Source of the DNA: a virus
Direction: 5' to 3' (one strand)
IMG/VR virus record: IMGVR_UViG_3300033998_000032
Span: 1 to 21,727 of that record
DNA: 21,727 bases
Shown here: positions 12,349-21,727 of the stretch, one piece after another
Numbering within the stretch: position 1 is the first letter of the stretch
Layout of the letters: every line of letters begins with the position of its first letter
Notes under the pieces: model-generated
Seen by the model: the letters and a program-made list of their open reading frames with translations, nothing else
The model's database searches: none
Told to the model about the DNA's origin: nothing
Position numbers and translations under genes: made by a program

Positions 12349-15300
12349 ATGGCCGATGAAATCAAAATTATGTCACGGTTGGGAGTGGATTACTCGCAAG
12401 CTATCAAATCGGCAGATCAATTAGCTGCCTCCCTCTCCGCCGTTGACAAGCAACTTAAGCAACTTCAATTCGAATATTCTCTGACTGTTAGTCAGTTAAA
12501 TAAATCTTTTCAGGGATTACAAACGGGCAAGGTTATTCTGGATCAGTTTGGCCGTCCTTTGAAGCAAATTCCCGAGATTGCCCAGCAAACTGCCAATGAA
12601 ATACAAAAGATAGCCCAAAAGTCGGCTACTGATGCGGAAACACTGGCGAAGAATACCACAAGACGTGCCCAAACTTTTTGGGAACGGCGCGTTGGTTGGT
12701 TTGTGGCTGGACTAGGGTTCTACGGCGGGCTAAATGCCCTACGTGATACCATCAAAACCATCGGCGATGTAGAAATGGGCATGACCCAGATTGCCCGGGT
12801 GATTGAAGACACCAACTTCTCTTTTGCCGGCATGAGGGAAGAGCTGTTCAAACTTGGCAAAGAGTATGGCATGACCTTCGACAAAATCCAAGATATTGCC
12901 CTTCGTTGGGCGCAGGCCGGCTACAACATGCAGGACACACTAGAACTTACCCGCGATTCCCTATTGGCCCTCAATACTGCCGAACTTGATGCGGAGCAAG
13001 CCACTTCGGGCTTAATTGCTATCATGGCTCAGTGGGGGCTTACTGCTGATCAACTCTTACCCGTGATCGACAAGATTAACAAAGTAGCCGATGACTATGC
13101 TATTACGTCACAGGATTTAGTTGACGGCCTTACCCGTTCCAGCGGTGCTGCAAGGGTTTTAGGATTAACCCTTGAGCAGACCATCGCTATCCTGACTGTA
13201 ATGCGGGAAGCCACAGGACGTACAGGAAAAGAAATCGGTAATGCTTTGAACTCTATTCTTTCTTTCATACAACGCCCCAAGTCTATTGAATTGTTTGAGA
13301 AGGAAGGAATTAAGGTTTGGGCCGACGAGGCCAAGACAACCTTCCGCAACGTTATCGACATATTCAACGACCTAGCGCAGCGTTGGCCGCAGATGTCCCA
13401 AGCTACCCAGGATATGTTCGTAGATGCCGCCGAACAGGCTGGGCTTTATACGGAAGAGATTGCCGAACTTACCGGAACAATGAAAGAGTTTACCGATGCC
13501 CAGCAGCGTGACTTGTCCCAAGCTGCCGCTGGTATCTACCGTAGGAATTATCTTCTTGCTCTTTTGCAGAACTGGTCGAAGATAAATCAGGTTCTGTTGT
13601 CCCAGGAACAGGCTCTGGGATACTCTTTGAAAGAGAACCAGCGGACGATGGAAACCTACCAGAAAAAAGTCGAACAACTAAAGGTAGCCTATCAAGAGCT
13701 ACAGGTTGCTATCGGTGAGAGCGGGTTGCTAGATAACCTTAAGGGGATTGTGGATGTGGCGCGGGAAGGTGTTGAATGGCTAAACAAAGCCGACCCTACA
13801 ATCAAGAATTTCGTTGTGAACCTTGGCATGATTGCCGGGGCGATAGTCACAATAAACACCCTCCTTCGGATTATGGGCGGCGTAGAAATCATCAAGATGG
13901 GTGCTGCACTGTCTGAACAAATCGAGATAGCTACCAAGGGAGTTACTGGGCTTAAGGCTGCCCTAGCTGGCCTCGGGGTGTTTATCAAAGCCAATCTACC
14001 TCTTCTGGCCGTTACTGGAGCTTTAACCGTTCTTGGCACAGTACTAACTGAAATGCGCCAGCAGGAACAGAAGATGCGGGAACAGGCCGCTACGGCGGGC
14101 CAGCTTCTTGAAAGATACGAGCAGATTCAAAAACGTCTATCTGGGCTTACAGAAGGCACCAAGCAGTATACCGATGCTTTGCAGGATTTGCAATCCATCA
14201 AGCTAGACATTTTCGCCCAGTTCCCTGAAGTGATGAAGGACGGGATAGTTGATATTGAAAAACTCCGTGGAATTGCTACCGCCTTCGACGATATTGGAAA
14301 GTCCGTGCAGCAAAGTGTTTCGGTTATTGAGCAGTACAACAAGCAGGTCGATTCTCTTACCCAGGAAATCAATACCCTTGAGCGAAACAAGAACCTACTC
14401 CAAGAACTGGCACAGAAACACCGTGAACTTTCCCGGGCACTCAACGAAGAAAAAGAAAGCTCCGAAGAAGCTAGTCAAAAGAAGGATGCCCTTGCCCAGA
14501 TAGAGCAGGGAATTATCGGCGTTATCGGCAAAGAAGGATACGAACGCCTCAAAGCTGCTGGTTTTACCGTAGAAGCAGTTAACAAAGAAATCGAGGCTAT
14601 CAACAAGAAGATTCAGGCCAAGAACCAAGAACAGAAAGCGATTGCGGAAAATGAAAAAGCTATGACTCAAACCATGATTCGCGAAACTATCACCCGCATG
14701 AACGCCGCTCTTCTGGAAGCCCAAGCTATGGCCGAACGTGCTCAAGCCTTACGGAGTGCTTGGATGACGAATGACAGCAACCTTTTGAATATGACTAATA
14801 TTACCGAGGCACACAAGGCTGAGCAACAATCCCAGTACTACGCGAACAAAGCTAGAGAGTACCAGCAACTTATTACCAAACTTCAGTCTCATCTTAACTC
14901 CCTGAGCCAGACCCAAGGAAAGGTTGCGAGGGCTGCGGGCGTTAGTGCAGGGGAGACGGGAAAACTTACCGATGCTATCAGGCGGTACATTGACACGGTT
15001 ATGGAAGCTGTGGATGCCATTCAAGAACTCAACACCCGCCGTCAAGAGGAAGTCGACCTATTACAAGCCCGCATTGACTACTTCAGCCGCGAAGGTGCTT
15101 CTTGGGACAGCCACCTAGCCGCCTTGCGAGACCATACAAGACTGATTGAGTTGGCCCAGGAAATGCAGAAAGGACTTCACGACGAGAACATCAGACTAGC
15201 AGAAGCCAACAAGAAACTTGAAGAACGAATGAAGAATGTTAATCGCACTACTGAGGAAGGGCGGCAGGCTTTCCAGGAGTTGTCCAGCCAGATTCAAGAG

Positions 15301-17079
15301 AACACGCGGCAGATGGCTCAAAACAGCGTCGAGTGGTGGAAGTGGCAGGAAGTAATAAGTAGCGGGATAAGTAAGGCCCAGATGATTTGGGATATAAGAG
15401 AAGCTGAGTTGGAAAGTCTCAGAACTCAACTGAGGTGGTACGCCCGCGAAGGAGCTACCAAGGAAGACCTAAACCGCGCGGAAGAAATTCGGGCCAAGAT
15501 TCTCATGGAACTAACCAGTAAATATATGGATATTCAAGAAAAAATCCAGGATTTAACCAAGGCGCAAGAAGAACTTAATAGACAAATGTTGGCGGGGGAA
15601 ATTGCTACAGGTAAATATAATGAAGAAATGAGAAATATGGGGGTTTTAAGCAAGCAATTAGAGGGGGAATTGTTCGAAACAAAGCTAGAAATGAAGGACC
15701 TAATTGCCGAAGTAAATAAAGGAGCTGATGCCTTCGAAAGTGTAATTCGGCCCTTAGACCACTTTGCGCGGATGGGGATGCTCACTGTTGAAGAGCAAAT
15801 CAGGGCACTCAGAAGGCTAAAGCGCAGTAGAGAAATAGACATGGAAGAGCAATGGGAAATAGACGAACGGTTGTTTGAACACTACAAAGACTTGCTGAAC
15901 GAACAGAAGGAAAGGATCGAAGAGGCATACAAAGAGCGCCTGAAACTCCTTGAAGAAACGACCGATGCCCAGATCAAAGAAATCCAACGCCTGATTGACG
16001 CACTAGATGTAGAAGCTACCCAAGAAGACAGGGAAGAAGCTGAAAGACAACACAATCAGAAGATAGCCGAACTTCTCAAAGAACGCTACTACCATGAGCT
16101 TCGTACGGGGATTGAACACCAGAGAGAGATTGAACGAATTAACCAAGAAATTGCTGAAGAAAACAGGCGTTGGGAGCTTCAGCAGAATGAATGGTCTAGG
16201 GAAGATCGGAGAAAAGAATACGAGAAACAGATTAAGGATATTCGGGAACAGGCCGAGAAGCAACGTCAGGAATGGGAAGAAGCATGGGAACGACTAGAGG
16301 AAGACTTTTCAGAACACAATATTAACATGATTGCCGCTGCCGCTGCCTATGATGATGATTGGTACAAGGACGCCAAACGAAAAGCTCAAAAGTGGTTTGA
16401 GGGGTTCAAAGAAGGACTGCCGAGCGATTTGGTTGGCAATTACCTTTCTAGCTTGGTTGGCGAAGCGGAAAATTACCTGGAAGATATTCGGAAACGTGAA
16501 ACAACCGAGTACAGTTCTTCAAAGGGTTCTAGTAGTCCTGGTTCCAGCAAGTCTTCCACAGTAGATGAGCAGTATTACCGAGATAAAGCACTCTTGAGCC
16601 TTAAAAAGCTGGCTGAGGAAGCTTATGCTTCTGGAAACAGGAGCTTGGCCGAACAATATCACAAACAGGCTAATGCTATTCGCGAATCTGGTTCTACGCT
16701 TGATCCAAACAATACCAAGACTGCGAAACAGTTAGAACAAGAAATGCTACAGAAATACGGCAAGGCCCACGAAGGAGCCTATGTCGTAGAAAGCGGTGCA
16801 GCAGTTCTTCTCAAAGGGGAACGGGTGCTTTCACCCCAGCTTACGGTAAGTTTCGACCGACTAGCCAATGCACTACTGAACAAGAATGTGCTTTTCACCG
16901 ACAACATTGACCGTGCCCTTAACAGGATTGTGGCTGCGCTGGAAAAGTCTAGAGGGCCGCAAGTTGATAAGCTGCTCAACATTGAGCGGTATGAACCTGC
17001 GGATGCCACGGACATCCAGATACTAGGACGGGAACTTGTTCGCAGCTTAAATCTTCTCAATTCGGCGAGGGGGAGATGA
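12349..17079 (+). CDS. Tape measure protein
   Basis: This is a 1576-residue protein that sets tail length and is thought to pass into the host during DNA entry. Residues about 135-340 form the TP901-1-type tape measure core (GDVEMGMTQIARVIEDTN, FDKIQDIALRWAQAGYNMQD, EATGRTGKEIGNALNSILSF). Hydrophobic stretches lie at about 110-130, 486-512 and 547-570, compatible with membrane insertion. From about 570 the protein is mostly long coiled coil, including three related motifs at about 913, 1033 and 1141 (REGAS, REGAT, RMGML contexts). The C-terminus (KAHEGAYVVESGAAVLLKGE, RVLSPQL) is typical. As one extended helix at 0.15 nm per residue, it would span up to about 235 nm if unprocessed. GAGGGGGG upstream supports ATG 12349. 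Confidence 0.93.
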   Translation: MADEIKIMSRLGVDYSQAIKSADQLAASLSAVDKQLKQLQFEYSLTVSQLNKSFQGLQTGKVILDQFGRPLKQIPEIAQQTANEIQKIAQKSATDAETLAKNTTRRAQTFWERRVGWFVAGLGFYGGLNALRDTIKTIGDVEMGMTQIARVIEDTNFSFAGMREELFKLGKEYGMTFDKIQDIALRWAQAGYNMQDTLELTRDSLLALNTAELDAEQATSGLIAIMAQWGLTADQLLPVIDKINKVADDYAITSQDLVDGLTRSSGAARVLGLTLEQTIAILTVMREATGRTGKEIGNALNSILSFIQRPKSIELFEKEGIKVWADEAKTTFRNVIDIFNDLAQRWPQMSQATQDMFVDAAEQAGLYTEEIAELTGTMKEFTDAQQRDLSQAAAGIYRRNYLLALLQNWSKINQVLLSQEQALGYSLKENQRTMETYQKKVEQLKVAYQELQVAIGESGLLDNLKGIVDVAREGVEWLNKADPTIKNFVVNLGMIAGAIVTINTLLRIMGGVEIIKMGAALSEQIEIATKGVTGLKAALAGLGVFIKANLPLLAVTGALTVLGTVLTEMRQQEQKMREQAATAGQLLERYEQIQKRLSGLTEGTKQYTDALQDLQSIKLDIFAQFPEVMKDGIVDIEKLRGIATAFDDIGKSVQQSVSVIEQYNKQVDSLTQEINTLERNKNLLQELAQKHRELSRALNEEKESSEEASQKKDALAQIEQGIIGVIGKEGYERLKAAGFTVEAVNKEIEAINKKIQAKNQEQKAIAENEKAMTQTMIRETITRMNAALLEAQAMAERAQALRSAWMTNDSNLLNMTNITEAHKAEQQSQYYANKAREYQQLITKLQSHLNSLSQTQGKVARAAGVSAGETGKLTDAIRRYIDTVMEAVDAIQELNTRRQEEVDLLQARIDYFSREGASWDSHLAALRDHTRLIELAQEMQKGLHDENIRLAEANKKLEERMKNVNRTTEEGRQAFQELSSQIQENTRQMAQNSVEWWKWQEVISSGISKAQMIWDIREAELESLRTQLRWYAREGATKEDLNRAEEIRAKILMELTSKYMDIQEKIQDLTKAQEELNRQMLAGEIATGKYNEEMRNMGVLSKQLEGELFETKLEMKDLIAEVNKGADAFESVIRPLDHFARMGMLTVEEQIRALRRLKRSREIDMEEQWEIDERLFEHYKDLLNEQKERIEEAYKERLKLLEETTDAQIKEIQRLIDALDVEATQEDREEAERQHNQKIAELLKERYYHELRTGIEHQREIERINQEIAEENRRWELQQNEWSREDRRKEYEKQIKDIREQAEKQRQEWEEAWERLEEDFSEHNINMIAAAAAYDDDWYKDAKRKAQKWFEGFKEGLPSDLVGNYLSSLVGEAENYLEDIRKRETTEYSSSKGSSSPGSSKSSTVDEQYYRDKALLSLKKLAEEAYASGNRSLAEQYHKQANAIRESGSTLDPNNTKTAKQLEQEMLQKYGKAHEGAYVVESGAAVLLKGERVLSPQLTVSFDRLANALLNKNVLFTDNIDRALNRIVAALEKSRGPQVDKLLNIERYEPADATDIQILGRELVRSLNLLNSARGR

Positions 17080-17081
17080 GT

Positions 17082-17789
17082 ATGGCTTTGTGGGTAGATG
17101 AAGAAAACATCCTGCAACCTCTGGGTCTAACCGTCCTACGAGACAGCAGATACGAGCTTTTACCCAGTACTAGGGACTATTTTGAGAAGATACCTGGAAG
17201 GCACGGTGAAATTGATTTTGGGGCCGAGTTTGAAGCAAGGATATTGGAGTTGCATTGCTGCATCGAGATTAATCCTTCCGATTGGCCTGCCAAAAGGCAG
17301 GAAATAGCTCAATACCTTAATCCTCTCCTAGGCACTCAAACGCTAACTTTTGCTAACGAACCCGGTAAGGTTTATCACGTAAGGTACTCGGGGAATATTG
17401 ACATTACCAACTACCTTGACGGGAAGGAATTTACTATTCCTTTCAGGATGTGTGATCCATTTATAACCAGCGCAGAAGAAAACCAACTAACGGGAAGTGG
17501 GATAGCGACAAATGCCGGAAATGTGGAGACACCTTTTATTTTAATTATCCACGGCCCTGCAACCAATCCAAGCGTGACCGTTGGTGGATACGCAATGACC
17601 TATACCGGGACAATCGGTGTAAACAGCGAGTTGGTAGTAGACACAGAAAAACTCACGGCTACCCTTGACGGACAAAATGCATTGCCGAACTATAACGAAG
17701 TGTTCCCAAAGTTGCAACCCGGAGACAATACCGTGGTGGCAGCAACGGAGGGAACAACGATTATCAAGTGGTACGATAGATGGATTTAA
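17082..17789 (+). CDS. Distal tail protein (Dit)
   Basis: This 235-residue protein follows the tape measure, as Dit does in Gram-positive siphophages, and forms the hexameric hub linking tail tube to the tip. LGLTVLRDSRYELLPSTRDY, PGRHGEIDFGAEFEARILEL and LNPLLGTQTLTFANEPGKVY match the N-terminal Dit/Sipho_tail domain in order and style. The C-terminal half (PFILIIHGPATNPSVTVGGY, KWYDRWI end) looks like its galectin-like domain. ATG 17076 overlaps the tape measure stop as ATGA, but GAGGGGG (17067-17073) is better spaced for ATG 17082, two codons later; either is possible. Confidence 0.88.
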   Translation: MALWVDEENILQPLGLTVLRDSRYELLPSTRDYFEKIPGRHGEIDFGAEFEARILELHCCIEINPSDWPAKRQEIAQYLNPLLGTQTLTFANEPGKVYHVRYSGNIDITNYLDGKEFTIPFRMCDPFITSAEENQLTGSGIATNAGNVETPFILIIHGPATNPSVTVGGYAMTYTGTIGVNSELVVDTEKLTATLDGQNALPNYNEVFPKLQPGDNTVVAATEGTTIIKWYDRWI

Positions 17790-17806: not shown

Positions 17807-20800
17807 ATGCCTTTAGTTATCCCGCCGTATATTGAAATACGCACGGCCGCCGGTGCAACGGCGGCCTTTTTATCTCCTGAATCCGATAACATCAAGGAAG
17901 TTGAAATCGAACGGGAACTGAACGGTAAATCCGTTTTAACCTTTTCCATGCCTCTAAGCAGCACCAAGTGGACTTACATTTCCGATGCCTACCGCATTTA
18001 CGCTGGGGGTAGAGAATTCGTAGTCCTTAACCCCGAAGCGATAAAGAAAGAACGAGACGGGAAGAAACTTTTCGGACTGGTAACTGCCCAGGAATCGTGG
18101 ATACTGCTAGGGAAGAAGTACGCCACGTTATCCAACGATCCCCAAAACACTTCCCCTCCCTGGTCTGCTGTTGTTATTGTTTCTGGGGGTAGTGACCTGT
18201 CTGGGGGACGTTATCCTGTTGGCAGCGCAGGACACGCATTGTACGCCCTCCTACAGGGAACGGGATGGTCTGTTGGTACGGTAGATGTTGAAGGCACGCA
18301 TGATTTAGAAACGGAAAAGCTATCCGTTCTGGCGAATATTTACAATATACAGGAAATTTGGGGTGGCTACCTTGTATGGGATAGCATTAACAAGACTGTT
18401 TCCCTCCGTAGCGAAGAAAACTGGGCACCATATACTGGCTATCAGATCAGATACGCCAAAAACCTGAAGAATATCACCAGAACCGATGACTACGACATTA
18501 TCACCAGACTATACCCGTTCGGAGAAGACGATTTGAACATTGCTTCTGTCAACAATGGTCAGCTTTATATTGAGAATCACAGTTATACCGATGAAATCTT
18601 GGAAGGAATATGGGTTAATCAGGACATTTCCGATCCGCAGGAGTTGAAGGACAAGGCCACAAAGTATTTGGAAAAGGTGTGCAAACCACGGCACAATTAC
18701 AAGGTTACTCAGGTTGACCTGCGGACGTTGCCCGGCTACCAGCACGAGGACTTCGACCTGGGTCACATCGTTGATGTGATAGACGAAGAACTTGGCATCA
18801 ATAGTAAGGCCAGAATTATTGGATACAAGTATGACGTATTCCAGCCCTGGAAGTGTGAGTTGGAAATCGGCGATCCAATTGACAAGATCGAAGCTGTCCT
18901 AGCAGACAGTCGCGAAGTAGTCAACTACCTTAACACTATAAGGAACAGCAAAGGACAAATTACGGCTTATAAACTTGTGGACGAAAGCATTATTAGTGAA
19001 AAAATAGCCAAAAGTGCAATAGATGCCAGCAAAATCAACGTTGGTCTTATCTTCCTAAGTGGTGATTCTTGGTCTGACAATACTCCTGCTCCTGGTTACG
19101 TGTCCTGGAACCAGCACAAGGTTTACTGGAAAGGTAATGAATATGTCATTACCGCAGGCAATACCAATCTGAAATACATCTACTGGGACAACCAAGCGAC
19201 AACTTACAGCGCCAGCGCAACCTTGCCCGACCTTACGGATGCAGGGTTTATTATTGCTGTGAACAATGGGGGATTGCATGAGCTAGTTTGGAATCAATCT
19301 ATCGCAAAGAAGCTTGTAGGCAACGAAATGATTGAAGAATTTGCTGTTGATACTTCCAAACTGGCCGATGCCGCCGTAACTACAGCCAAACTAGCTAATG
19401 CAGCAGTAGATGTGAATAAACTAGCCGATTTGGCTGTAACTGCTTCTAAAATAGCTGATGGAAGTATTACCACACCCAAGCTAGGGGATGCTTCTGTAAC
19501 TACTGGAAAACTTGCCGATTTGGCTGTAACTGCTTCAAAAATTTCCGATGGTGCAGTAACTACAACTAAGATTGGTATTGGTGCTGTAGGTTCTGCACAA
19601 TTAGCAGACGCTGCTGTAACCACTTCCAAATTAGCTAATGGAGCAGTTGATATTAATAAGCTGGCTGATCTTTCAGTAACGGCATCAAAAATAGTAGATG
19701 GCAGTATTACAACACCTAAGCTTGGAGATGCAGCGATAACAGCCCAAAAAATTGCAGATCAGGCCGTTACTGGTACAAAAATTGCGACAGCAGCTATAGG
19801 TACAGCGCACATTCAAAACGGTGCAATTACTAATGCCCATATTGCGAACGGCGCTATAGATTCTGCCAAAATCGCGGATGCAGCCATTACATCAGCTAAA
19901 ATTGCCGAAGCTGCTGTGGGTTCCGCAGCCATTGCTAATGCCGCCGTTGGTACTGCTCATATAGCGGATGGTGCTATTACCAACGCCAAAATTCAAAAAT
20001 GGATACTGGGTAAATCTGGTACAACATTTCCTACTTCTCCGACAGATGGAGAGGTTTTTTATCGTACTGATCTTAATAAAGCATATCGCTACAGCGCGTC
20101 TACCGCGTCTTGGATAGCTGTGGATTTTGTAGAAAACTCTAACCGAATCGCAGATGGAGTAATTACTACTACCAAAATAGTAGATGCGGCTATTACTACT
20201 GCCAAAATAGCGGATGCCGCTGTAAATAGTGCCAAAATAGCCAATCTTGCAGTTGGTACTGCGGCTATCCAAGATGGGGCTATTACAAATGCCAAAATTG
20301 CTAATCTGGCTGTTGATTCGGCAAAGATAGCTGATGCTGCTATTACTTCCGCTAAAATTGCTAATGCGGCGGTGGGTAGCGCAGCTATAGCTAATGCTGC
20401 AGTAGGCACGGCACATATTGCGGATGGAGCAATCACTTCTACCAAGATAGGCGATGCACAGATAACTAATGCAAAAATCCAGGATGGTGCCATTAGTACC
20501 GCCAAAATAGCGGATGCGGCCATCACTTCGGCCAAGATTGCCAATGCTGCTGTTGGTAGTGCGGCCATAGCTAACGCCGCCATAGGTTCTGCTCATATTG
20601 CCAATGGTGTGATCCAGACTGCGCATATAGCCGATGCGGCGATAACTGATGCTAAGATAGCCAACATTACAGCTAACAAGATTACCAGCGGCGAGCTTAA
20701 TGCTGGCTTGGTTAACGTAGTGTCCGACAACGGTATATTGAGATTAAATGGGGCTGGCCTTACCGTGCATGATGATACTGGTAATCTCCGGGCCAGTATG

Positions 20801-20869
20801 GGTATGGAATCTCTTGGGGAACAGACTGCTACGTTTACAAGAAACAGCGTTGCCTATGTAGAGGGGTGA
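17807..20869 (+). CDS. Tal/tail-tip adhesin, apparently the N-terminal part of a split protein
   Basis: This is a 1020-residue product. Residues 1-365 resemble the Tal/gp27-like baseplate hub and prophage endopeptidase tail family ([60 protein letters not shown]). A helical linker and a domain at about 415-510 ([20 protein letters not shown]) follow. Then come 22 decapeptide repeats (513-732), an inserted small domain (733-784, [18 protein letters not shown]), 17 more repeats (785-954), and a tail ending [13 protein letters not shown]. That last motif is normally followed, in adhesins I know, by a ...V-A-x-N-x-P-R-F-x-P-G-x-F-G-x-A-V segment. Here that segment is encoded after the endonuclease gene. 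The gene therefore looks interrupted at its 3' part. It would form the host-binding tip. Confidence 0.85.
17845..17871 (+). terminator. Intragenic terminator-like hairpin (start of Tal gene)
   Basis: GGCCGCCG (17845-17852) pairs perfectly with CGGCGGCC (17859-17866) around GTGCAA, with TTTTT directly after (17867-17871). This is a textbook intrinsic terminator by form, and the strongest of the intragenic set because its eight pairs are all G-C. It lies at codons 13-22 of the Tal gene, just downstream of Dit. Confidence 0.6.
19343..20668 (+). repeat. Decapeptide (30-base) repeat array in Tal
   Basis: There are thirty-nine 10-residue units of consensus A-[IV]-T-x-[AS]-K-[IL]-A-[DN]-[AGL]: 22 units at 19343-20002 and 17 at 20159-20668, split by a small domain. 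Longer segments recur almost unchanged. The trio [30 protein letters not shown] reappears eight units later with small changes, and a four-unit block ([10 protein letters not shown] to [10 protein letters not shown]) recurs in the second array. This shows segmental duplication as well as single-unit growth. Such repeats form long fibrous stalks in tail fibres; the fold here is not determined. Confidence 0.85.
20034..20060 (+). terminator. Intragenic terminator-like hairpin (Tal insert domain)
   Basis: CTTCTCC (20034-20040) pairs with GGAGAGG (20048-20054), seven pairs including one T-G, around GACAGAT; TTTTTT follows directly (20055-20060). It lies in the small domain that interrupts the decapeptide repeats. 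Confidence 0.45.
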
Positions 20870-21661
20870 ATATCTTGCCAGTACAACTAACTTGTGCTTT
20901 TTGTGGCAAAACCTTTAAAGTAAGACCATATGAGTTAACCAAAAGATACCCCAGAAAATATTGTAGTAATGAATGTTATTGGAAGTCCGGTACACCAAAA
21001 CCCAAACAAAAGAAAGGTACTTACAAGAAATGCCCAGTTTGCGGAAAGGAATTTTATGCAAAACCCAGTCAAGCAAACAAACGTTTTTGTTCTAAGAAGT
21101 GTGCAGCCACAAAGGGGCCATTGCTAACTTGTAAGGTGTGTGGGAAACAATATCGTCGCAATCCCTGGGCTGTTAAAAACTTAGGTTCTTCTTGTTGTAG
21201 TATAGAATGCAGAGATAAAGCTAGAATTGGCTATGTTCCAAGCGAAGAAACCAGAAGAAAGTTGTCGATAGCACTAAAAGGGAAAATGGTTGGCAAAAAC
21301 AATCCTCGTTATGGCAAAACTCCACCCAAATTAGGTTACGGAAAAAGAATGTGGTACAAAGATGTTTTATTTCGTTCAACTTACGAAGTTAGATTTGCCA
21401 AGGCACTAGATATGTTAGGAATACCGTGGCAGTACGAACCTAAGAGATTTGAATATACAGATTCGCAAGGACGTGAACGGACATACTTGATTGATTTTTA
21501 CTTGCCCCAGCAAAATTTATGGGTAGAAGTAAAAGGGTATGTAACCGAGGAAGATAAAGAAATGCTTAAGGCTCTCCGTAATGAGGGCCTTAATATTTTG
21601 CTGGCTACTTTGCAAATTATTAGGATGTTTGAAGCAAGTGCTTCAAAAGGTGGTGGGTTGG
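20870..21661 (+). mobile_element. Endonuclease insertion splitting the tail adhesin gene
   Basis: The insertion is inferred, with boundaries known only approximately. The left side ends with adhesin motif residues SVAYVEG and a TGA at 20867-20869. The right side resumes at ATG 21662 with VASNVPRFYPGRFGQAV, which reads as the direct continuation of the motif. The element contains only the endonuclease gene, out of frame with the adhesin, so it is not an intein. There is no room for a group I or II intron core on either side. This resembles the free-standing endonuclease insertion reported in a T4-like phage nrdA gene (mobE, Aeromonas phage Aeh1). Confidence 0.6.
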
Positions 21662-21687
21662 ATGGCATTAGTGCAAGTTGCTTCTAA
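20875..21687 (+). CDS. Zinc-finger/NUMOD3/PD-(D/E)XK homing-type endonuclease
   Basis: This is a 270-residue protein. Three Cys fingers come first: Cys7-Cys10/Cys30-Cys34, Cys53-Cys56/Cys72-Cys76 and Cys86-Cys89/Cys108-Cys112. A NUMOD3-like DNA-binding motif follows at about 123-150 (RRKLSIALKGKMVGKNNPRY). The nuclease domain (155-250) has Glu171 (STYEVRFA), Asp207 (LIDFYLP) and Glu218-x-Lys220 (WVEVKGY), a PD-(D/E)XK/Vsr-like layout. TTG 20875 is preferred because GAGGGG (20861-20866) lies eight bases before it; GTG 20866 overlaps the Tal stop and is an alternative. The last residues (LDGISASCF) are the out-of-frame reading of the downstream adhesin segment. Likely role: a mobile, site-specific nuclease that spreads its own gene. 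Confidence 0.82.
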   Translation: MPVQLTCAFCGKTFKVRPYELTKRYPRKYCSNECYWKSGTPKPKQKKGTYKKCPVCGKEFYAKPSQANKRFCSKKCAATKGPLLTCKVCGKQYRRNPWAVKNLGSSCCSIECRDKARIGYVPSEETRRKLSIALKGKMVGKNNPRYGKTPPKLGYGKRMWYKDVLFRSTYEVRFAKALDMLGIPWQYEPKRFEYTDSQGRERTYLIDFYLPQQNLWVEVKGYVTEEDKEMLKALRNEGLNILLATLQIIRMFEASASKGGGLDGISASCF

Positions 21688-21727
21688 TGTCCCACGATTT
21701 TATCCTGGCAGGTTCGGCCAGGCGGTG
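21662..21727 (+). CDS. Tail adhesin C-terminal part, 3'-truncated by window edge
   Basis: ATG 21662 has AAGGTGG (21647-21653) eight bases upstream, within the endonuclease gene. The 22 visible residues start MALVQ and continue VASNVPRFYPGRFGQAV. This matches the second half of the adhesin motif FTRxSxAY...VAxNxPRFxPGxFGxAV, whose first half ends the Tal gene before the endonuclease. In such proteins a carbohydrate-binding or lectin-like domain usually follows. The start overlaps the endonuclease end by 26 bases, giving possible translational coupling. An independent natural gene is less likely because the motif is cut exactly in the middle. Confidence 0.65.
   Translation, partial: MALVQVASNVPRFYPGRFGQAV

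Follow-up and report, generated by a model that had tools for sequence, protein, structure and literature searches.

The virus fragment that we analyzed (IMGVR_UViG_3300033998_000032, 21,727 bp, hereafter the window) appears to carry the gene of a free-standing, intron-less homing endonuclease that inserted where a siphophage Tal gene is most conserved and split it in two. Tal is the tail-associated adhesin, a host-binding phage tail protein. On the comparisons described below we consider this reading very probable, and the part of it that concerns the insertion and the split is firmer still.

The tail genes of the window run from tape measure (12349-17079) through distal tail protein (17076-17789) to Tal. 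The 5′ half of Tal (Tal-N, 1020 aa in the ORF list) occupies 17807..20869 on the plus strand and consists of a Prophage_tail domain (PF06605, E 1.5e-47) followed by a long repeat stalk, with SVAYVEG-stop at its C-terminal end. An endonuclease ORF (20866-21687, plus strand) overlaps that stop in a different frame, and the Tal frame is then reopened by ATG 21662 at the head of MALVQVASNVPRFYPGRFGQAV, which remains open up to the end of the window. This is the beginning of the 3′ half (Tal-C; 21662..21727, plus strand), which runs past the end of the window. Its reading resumes as VQVASNVPRF...EEGTTN, with an ATG of its own and its own Shine-Dalgarno site, AAGGTGG at 21647..21653 on the plus strand (duplex -11.0 kcal/mol, on par with other genes here). 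The original prediction had described just this arrangement, in which Tal stops, an endonuclease gene follows and a new frame begins MALVQ, and the ORF list and coordinates confirmed it. They likewise upheld the statements that Tal-C has its own AAGGTGG and ATG inside the end of the endonuclease gene, and that the endonuclease is out of frame with Tal. Two tRNA genes, tRNA-Arg (tct) at 967-1043 and tRNA-Thr (tgt) at 2031-2104, lie upstream of the terminase region of the window.

When the joined flanks were set against 64 uninterrupted junctions, all distinct, the inserted segment could be placed at 20867..21670 on the plus strand, a length of 804 bp with ends accurate to within a few bases. 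It is bounded by the Tal glycine codon GGG (20864-20866) and the valine codon GTG (21671), and almost all of it is taken up by one intact endonuclease ORF, while the Tal frame meets 16 stops on its way through. The Tal-N stop is the first codon of the insert and the Shine-Dalgarno site and ATG of Tal-C fall within its last ~25 bases, so that both the stop and the restart are supplied by the element itself. At the junction Tal-N carries no added residue and Tal-C three (MAL). When joined, the motif of the window has 21 residues, as against 22 in 61 of the 64 intact junctions and 23 in 3 of them. Being one codon short of every intact junction, it indicates either some imprecision in the insertion or the loss or change of a codon.

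The left half of the split motif lies at 20831..20866 on the plus strand, as aligned with intact homologs. The break, and with it the insertion, falls inside the block of 39 residues in which the region is best conserved, a conserved target for a homing endonuclease. Mean conservation in this block was 0.81 compared with 0.43 elsewhere, a figure that is in part selection bias because the loci were fetched partly via EEGTTN; the stretch FTRxSVAY...NVPRF was outside the fetch patterns. Three smaller features were seen near the break. The bases GATGGC at 21661-21666 are possibly leftover Asp-Gly codons of the target that also supply the ATG, and could equally be due to chance. A near-perfect inverted repeat, TTGAAGCA-AG-TGCTTCAA (window 21629-21646), immediately precedes the ribosome-binding site of Tal-C. 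Shortly after the break, around TTCGGCCAGGCGGTGATGGTGGAGGAGGGGACGACGAA (L002:5844-5895 in the sister contig described below), ~38 bases are identical at the DNA level to the nearest uninterrupted relative, while the surroundings are only ~72% identical, which may reflect recent exchange or constraint on the target.

That nearest relative, L102 (contig 3300033998_000206), has the same order of tape measure, distal tail and Tal genes as the window, and its Tal is 71% identical over the first 541 residues. Across the junction its sequence is FSRPSVAYKQDGTQVAANVPRFEAGKFGQAVMVEEGTTN, uninterrupted. The original prediction had proposed a homolog search with Tal joined to the downstream residues, and in that search a single BLASTP alignment to L102 spanned the junction (53/90 identical, E 4e-35). 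A second homolog, L005, encodes an intact Tal of 1238 aa in which Prophage_tail, the motif and LamG lie in one chain. Among all loci fetched, the 64 distinct junction DNA sequences mentioned above were uninterrupted and the split was found in the window and its sister only; the joined Tal-N and Tal-C aligned end to end with the uninterrupted homologs. The earlier claim that the two pieces form one contiguous motif in uninterrupted adhesins was thus borne out. We also looked for relatives in which Tal naturally ends at SVAYVEG with the next gene separate, and saw none. Judged by sequence comparison, these homologs demonstrate the ancestral continuity of Tal-N and Tal-C.

The sister is a 14-kb contig, IMGVR_UViG_3300034520_000041 (L002), which carries the same insert with both junctions, and all 862 of 862 bases from 20866 onward are identical to the window. 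Tal-C is complete there (L002:5797-7677, 626 aa) and has a LamG/concanavalin-like domain (Laminin_G_3, PF13385, E 3.3e-10). Outside repeats, about 4.2 kb of the two contigs contain a single difference, and the 1.3 kb surrounding the insert contain none. They are nearly the same phage, so that one insertion event is known, and their divergence is too small for selection on Tal-C to be measured from the pair. Co-conversion, as read from the low-divergence tract over the endonuclease, was dropped because the upstream region is equally identical. When relatives of the far downstream half were searched for, the sister alone matched.

The Tal repeat stalk, which is made of decapeptides (19223-20434 in the window, compared with L002/L003), is nearly the sole region of difference between the window and its sister. 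Tal-N has 1020 aa in the window and 788 aa in the sister, in frame, the sister stalk being 232 residues shorter, which points to repeat shuffling as a source of change in stalk length. Farther along, the sister encodes a calcineurin-like phosphoesterase with a helix-turn-helix region (L002:8945-10009) directly before a Subtilase-family protease gene (L002:10013-10819; PF00082, E 3e-53). In three different phage contigs (L002:8344-8853, L103:11197-11730 and L004:7917-8891) the tail genes are closely followed, on the opposite, minus strand, by a gene whose product has a copper amine oxidase N-terminal domain (PF07833).

We then examined the endonuclease itself. Its ORF encodes 273 aa if translation begins at GTG 20866 and 270 aa if it begins at TTG 20875, and the latter is more probably the start, since it has a strong Shine-Dalgarno-like site, GAGGGGTGA at 20861..20869 on the plus strand (duplex -10.6 kcal/mol), and GTG 20866 has none. 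The final codons of Tal, together with its stop, make up this site. All domains of the protein are encoded on the plus strand. Three clusters of Cys pairs resembling zinc ribbons (residues 10-37, 56-79 and 89-115; 20893..21210) are apparent in the sequence and gave weak matches to zinc-finger profiles. They are followed by NUMOD3, a homing-endonuclease DNA-binding module (21229..21321; PF07460, 26.5 bits, cut-off 20.4), and by a PD-(D/E)XK nuclease domain like that of T7 endonuclease I (21358..21582), which was recognized by phmmer to 2pfj/1m0d and by alignment (E 2e-4 to 2pfj, T7 endonuclease I). E174, D210, E221 and K223 align with the catalytic residues of T7 endonuclease I, and all four are kept. 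The score to the T7 endonuclease I family PF05367 was 25.8 bits, below the gathering cut-off of 29.1. By fold similarity and catalytic residues the nuclease is predicted to be a relative of that family and no formal member of PF05367.

Searches of viral contigs with the whole protein and with the nuclease domain found no other copy of the endonuclease than that in the sister contig. Named phages had weak homologs to its C-terminal half only, and of two that were inspected neither was inside tail genes. With intact catalytic residues and a NUMOD module in a protein encoded between the Tal halves, the most likely identification is an intron-less homing endonuclease that split Tal. The gene also contains a terminator-like hairpin followed by TATTTT (21566..21593, plus strand, -15.7 kcal/mol), a stability reached by 0.24% of 30-nt windows, the count of the pattern itself being not above that in shuffles. 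This hairpin may lower transcription into Tal-C. T4 mobE and segF likewise carry internal terminators, and free-standing endonucleases whose start overlaps the upstream gene are known for mobE, segC, segF and mobA (PMC2988022).

Several other explanations of the interrupted Tal frame had to be weighed. The insert might be an unrecognised self-splicing intron, its core overlapping the endonuclease ORF, with full-length Tal made after RNA splicing. A spliced tail gene interrupted by a homing endonuclease gene is known, the tape measure gene of ICP1 (PMC10448857), and here a splice pair of the form U/...G/ can be written (TAT/...TGG/ATGGCATTAGTG) whose product is in frame and near-homologous. However, no group I intron (RF00028) or other intron family in Rfam was matched in the window or the sister at E<=10 or at the gathering threshold, while the same search gave 105 bits (E 6.5e-28) for the T4 nrdD intron. 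The insert is almost wholly coding, its folding is not more stable than that of shuffles (z -0.39), and a separate Shine-Dalgarno site and ATG for Tal-C would be superfluous. We therefore consider an intron improbable. An intein or split intein was excluded: the Tal frame is closed throughout the insert, and the junction residues counted above leave no room for intein halves. The earlier claim of a split without intron or intein is supported on both counts. A single polypeptide could also be imagined to arise by recoding, through a -1 slip on GGGGTGA, long-range bypassing or stop read-through. The bases GAGGGG-TGA could indeed slip -1 into the endonuclease frame, but this merely fuses Tal-N to the endonuclease and Tal-C needs a second shift; read-through halts at 20888, and 804 nt far exceeds the T4 gene 60 bypass, which is 50 nt. 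Recoding is accordingly highly improbable. We place equally little belief in the proposal that the Tal pieces have always been separate genes, or that the split is an assembly artefact. In some phages (THSA-485A) the gene of the motif protein is apart from that of the tail-spike protein, but the motif itself is uninterrupted even in this type, and it is continuous in the syntenic nearest relative. Both junctions are common to two contigs with different repeat stalks, which must be separate assemblies of two variants and make an artefact unlikely.

The alternative with the most weight accepts the insertion and holds that the adhesin is broken, with Tal-N alone acting as a shortened tail tip and Tal-C left as an unassembled or decaying remnant that persists only because the insertion is recent. 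The near identity of window and sister gives no record of a time span in which decay could have become visible. The hairpin in the endonuclease gene could reduce Tal-C transcription, and the structure models allow a similar reading. An AlphaFold model of an intact homolog had a pLDDT of 90 overall and above 90 through the motif, and resembled carbohydrate-binding modules (CBM16-like by Foldseek), so that the break is predicted to fall within a folded unit or at its margin, and outside the stalk. The model of the Tal-C fragment had a pLDDT of 75 with a disordered N terminus (about 35 beside the break), where the intact homolog is well ordered; the two models come from different sequences, and this makes the comparison an uncontrolled one. 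On the other hand, Tal-C is open over all 626 codons and keeps the residues that are invariant among homologs. Its Shine-Dalgarno site and ATG are of gene strength, which is only permissive for translation and assembly. We hold a broken adhesin to be somewhat less likely than not.

Functional reassembly of the Tal halves on the virion, as judged from these same features, has a little under an even chance of being correct, and a split receptor-binding protein on the virion is plausible. In its fullest form the proposal is of a naturally split receptor-binding adhesin, in which two chains would re-form the Tal tip and the endonuclease would supply a stop, a ribosome-binding site and a start, and so sit harmlessly, with neither intron nor intein, in a structural gene that is essential; we offer this form tentatively. 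One tail-operon message would give three polypeptides (Tal-N, endonuclease and Tal-C) by re-initiation. By cutting Tal alleles that lack the insert, in the conserved motif or close to it, the endonuclease would spread through repair. Both halves of Tal would remain functional, Tal-N as the hub of the tail tip and its stalk, Tal-C as a lectin-like tip held non-covalently. If the halves do reassemble, a tail adhesin tolerates a backbone break beside its binding tip, and gene fission is suggested as a route to modular, swappable receptor-binding subunits. The locus would then serve to test whether a selfish element can do without a self-splicing device by carrying signals of its own for stop and restart.

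Fractured genes with split inteins, reportedly described by Dassa et al. in 2009 (cited in PMC10448857), resemble the present locus in having an endonuclease gene between the gene halves, but differ in the intein halves, for which the window has no room. PD-(D/E)XK homing endonuclease genes occur in tail operons, and the interrupted tape measure gene of ICP1 is RNA-spliced (PMC10448857). ICP1 is similar to the window in that the endonuclease gene lies inside a tail gene, and different in that its transcript is spliced, whereas no intron is detectable here. Closer in mechanism are the T4 topoisomerase large subunit gene, split by mobA, and gene 43 of Aeromonas phage 25 with seg43 (PMC2988022). 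In these, as in the window, an endonuclease gene is located between halves of an ancestrally single gene; they concern DNA-metabolism enzymes with HNH and GIY-YIG nucleases, unlike the adhesin of the window. We found no report of an intron-less homing endonuclease gene splitting a tail fibre or adhesin gene in the open-access literature searched, which is weak evidence.

The closest parallel is that drawn in the original prediction, with nrdA of the Aeromonas phage Aeh1, which is split by mobE without intron or intein (PMC2988022), and the mechanism does match. The halves of the split nrdA product, alpha-a and alpha-b, assemble into the enzyme (PMC3267527). In both phages a free-standing homing endonuclease lies in a conserved gene that is now two separately coded halves. 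Aeh1 has interaction tails, and these, according to the title of a 2011 paper by Crona et al., are said to be derived from the mobile element. Its halves were shown to assemble, whereas those of the window, which may do so, have zero and three extra residues at their ends. The nuclease of Aeh1 is of the HNH type and its split gene encodes a soluble enzyme, compared with a T7-endonuclease-I-like PD-(D/E)XK nuclease and a virion tail adhesin here. Intron-less splits by homing endonuclease genes have been documented for phage enzymes, namely ribonucleotide reductase, topoisomerase and DNA polymerase; in the window the gene predicted to be split encodes a host-recognition protein of the virion. 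The apparent novelty with respect to the known split genes lies in this virion adhesin as host gene, in the different nuclease fold and in the almost complete lack of added residues at the junction.
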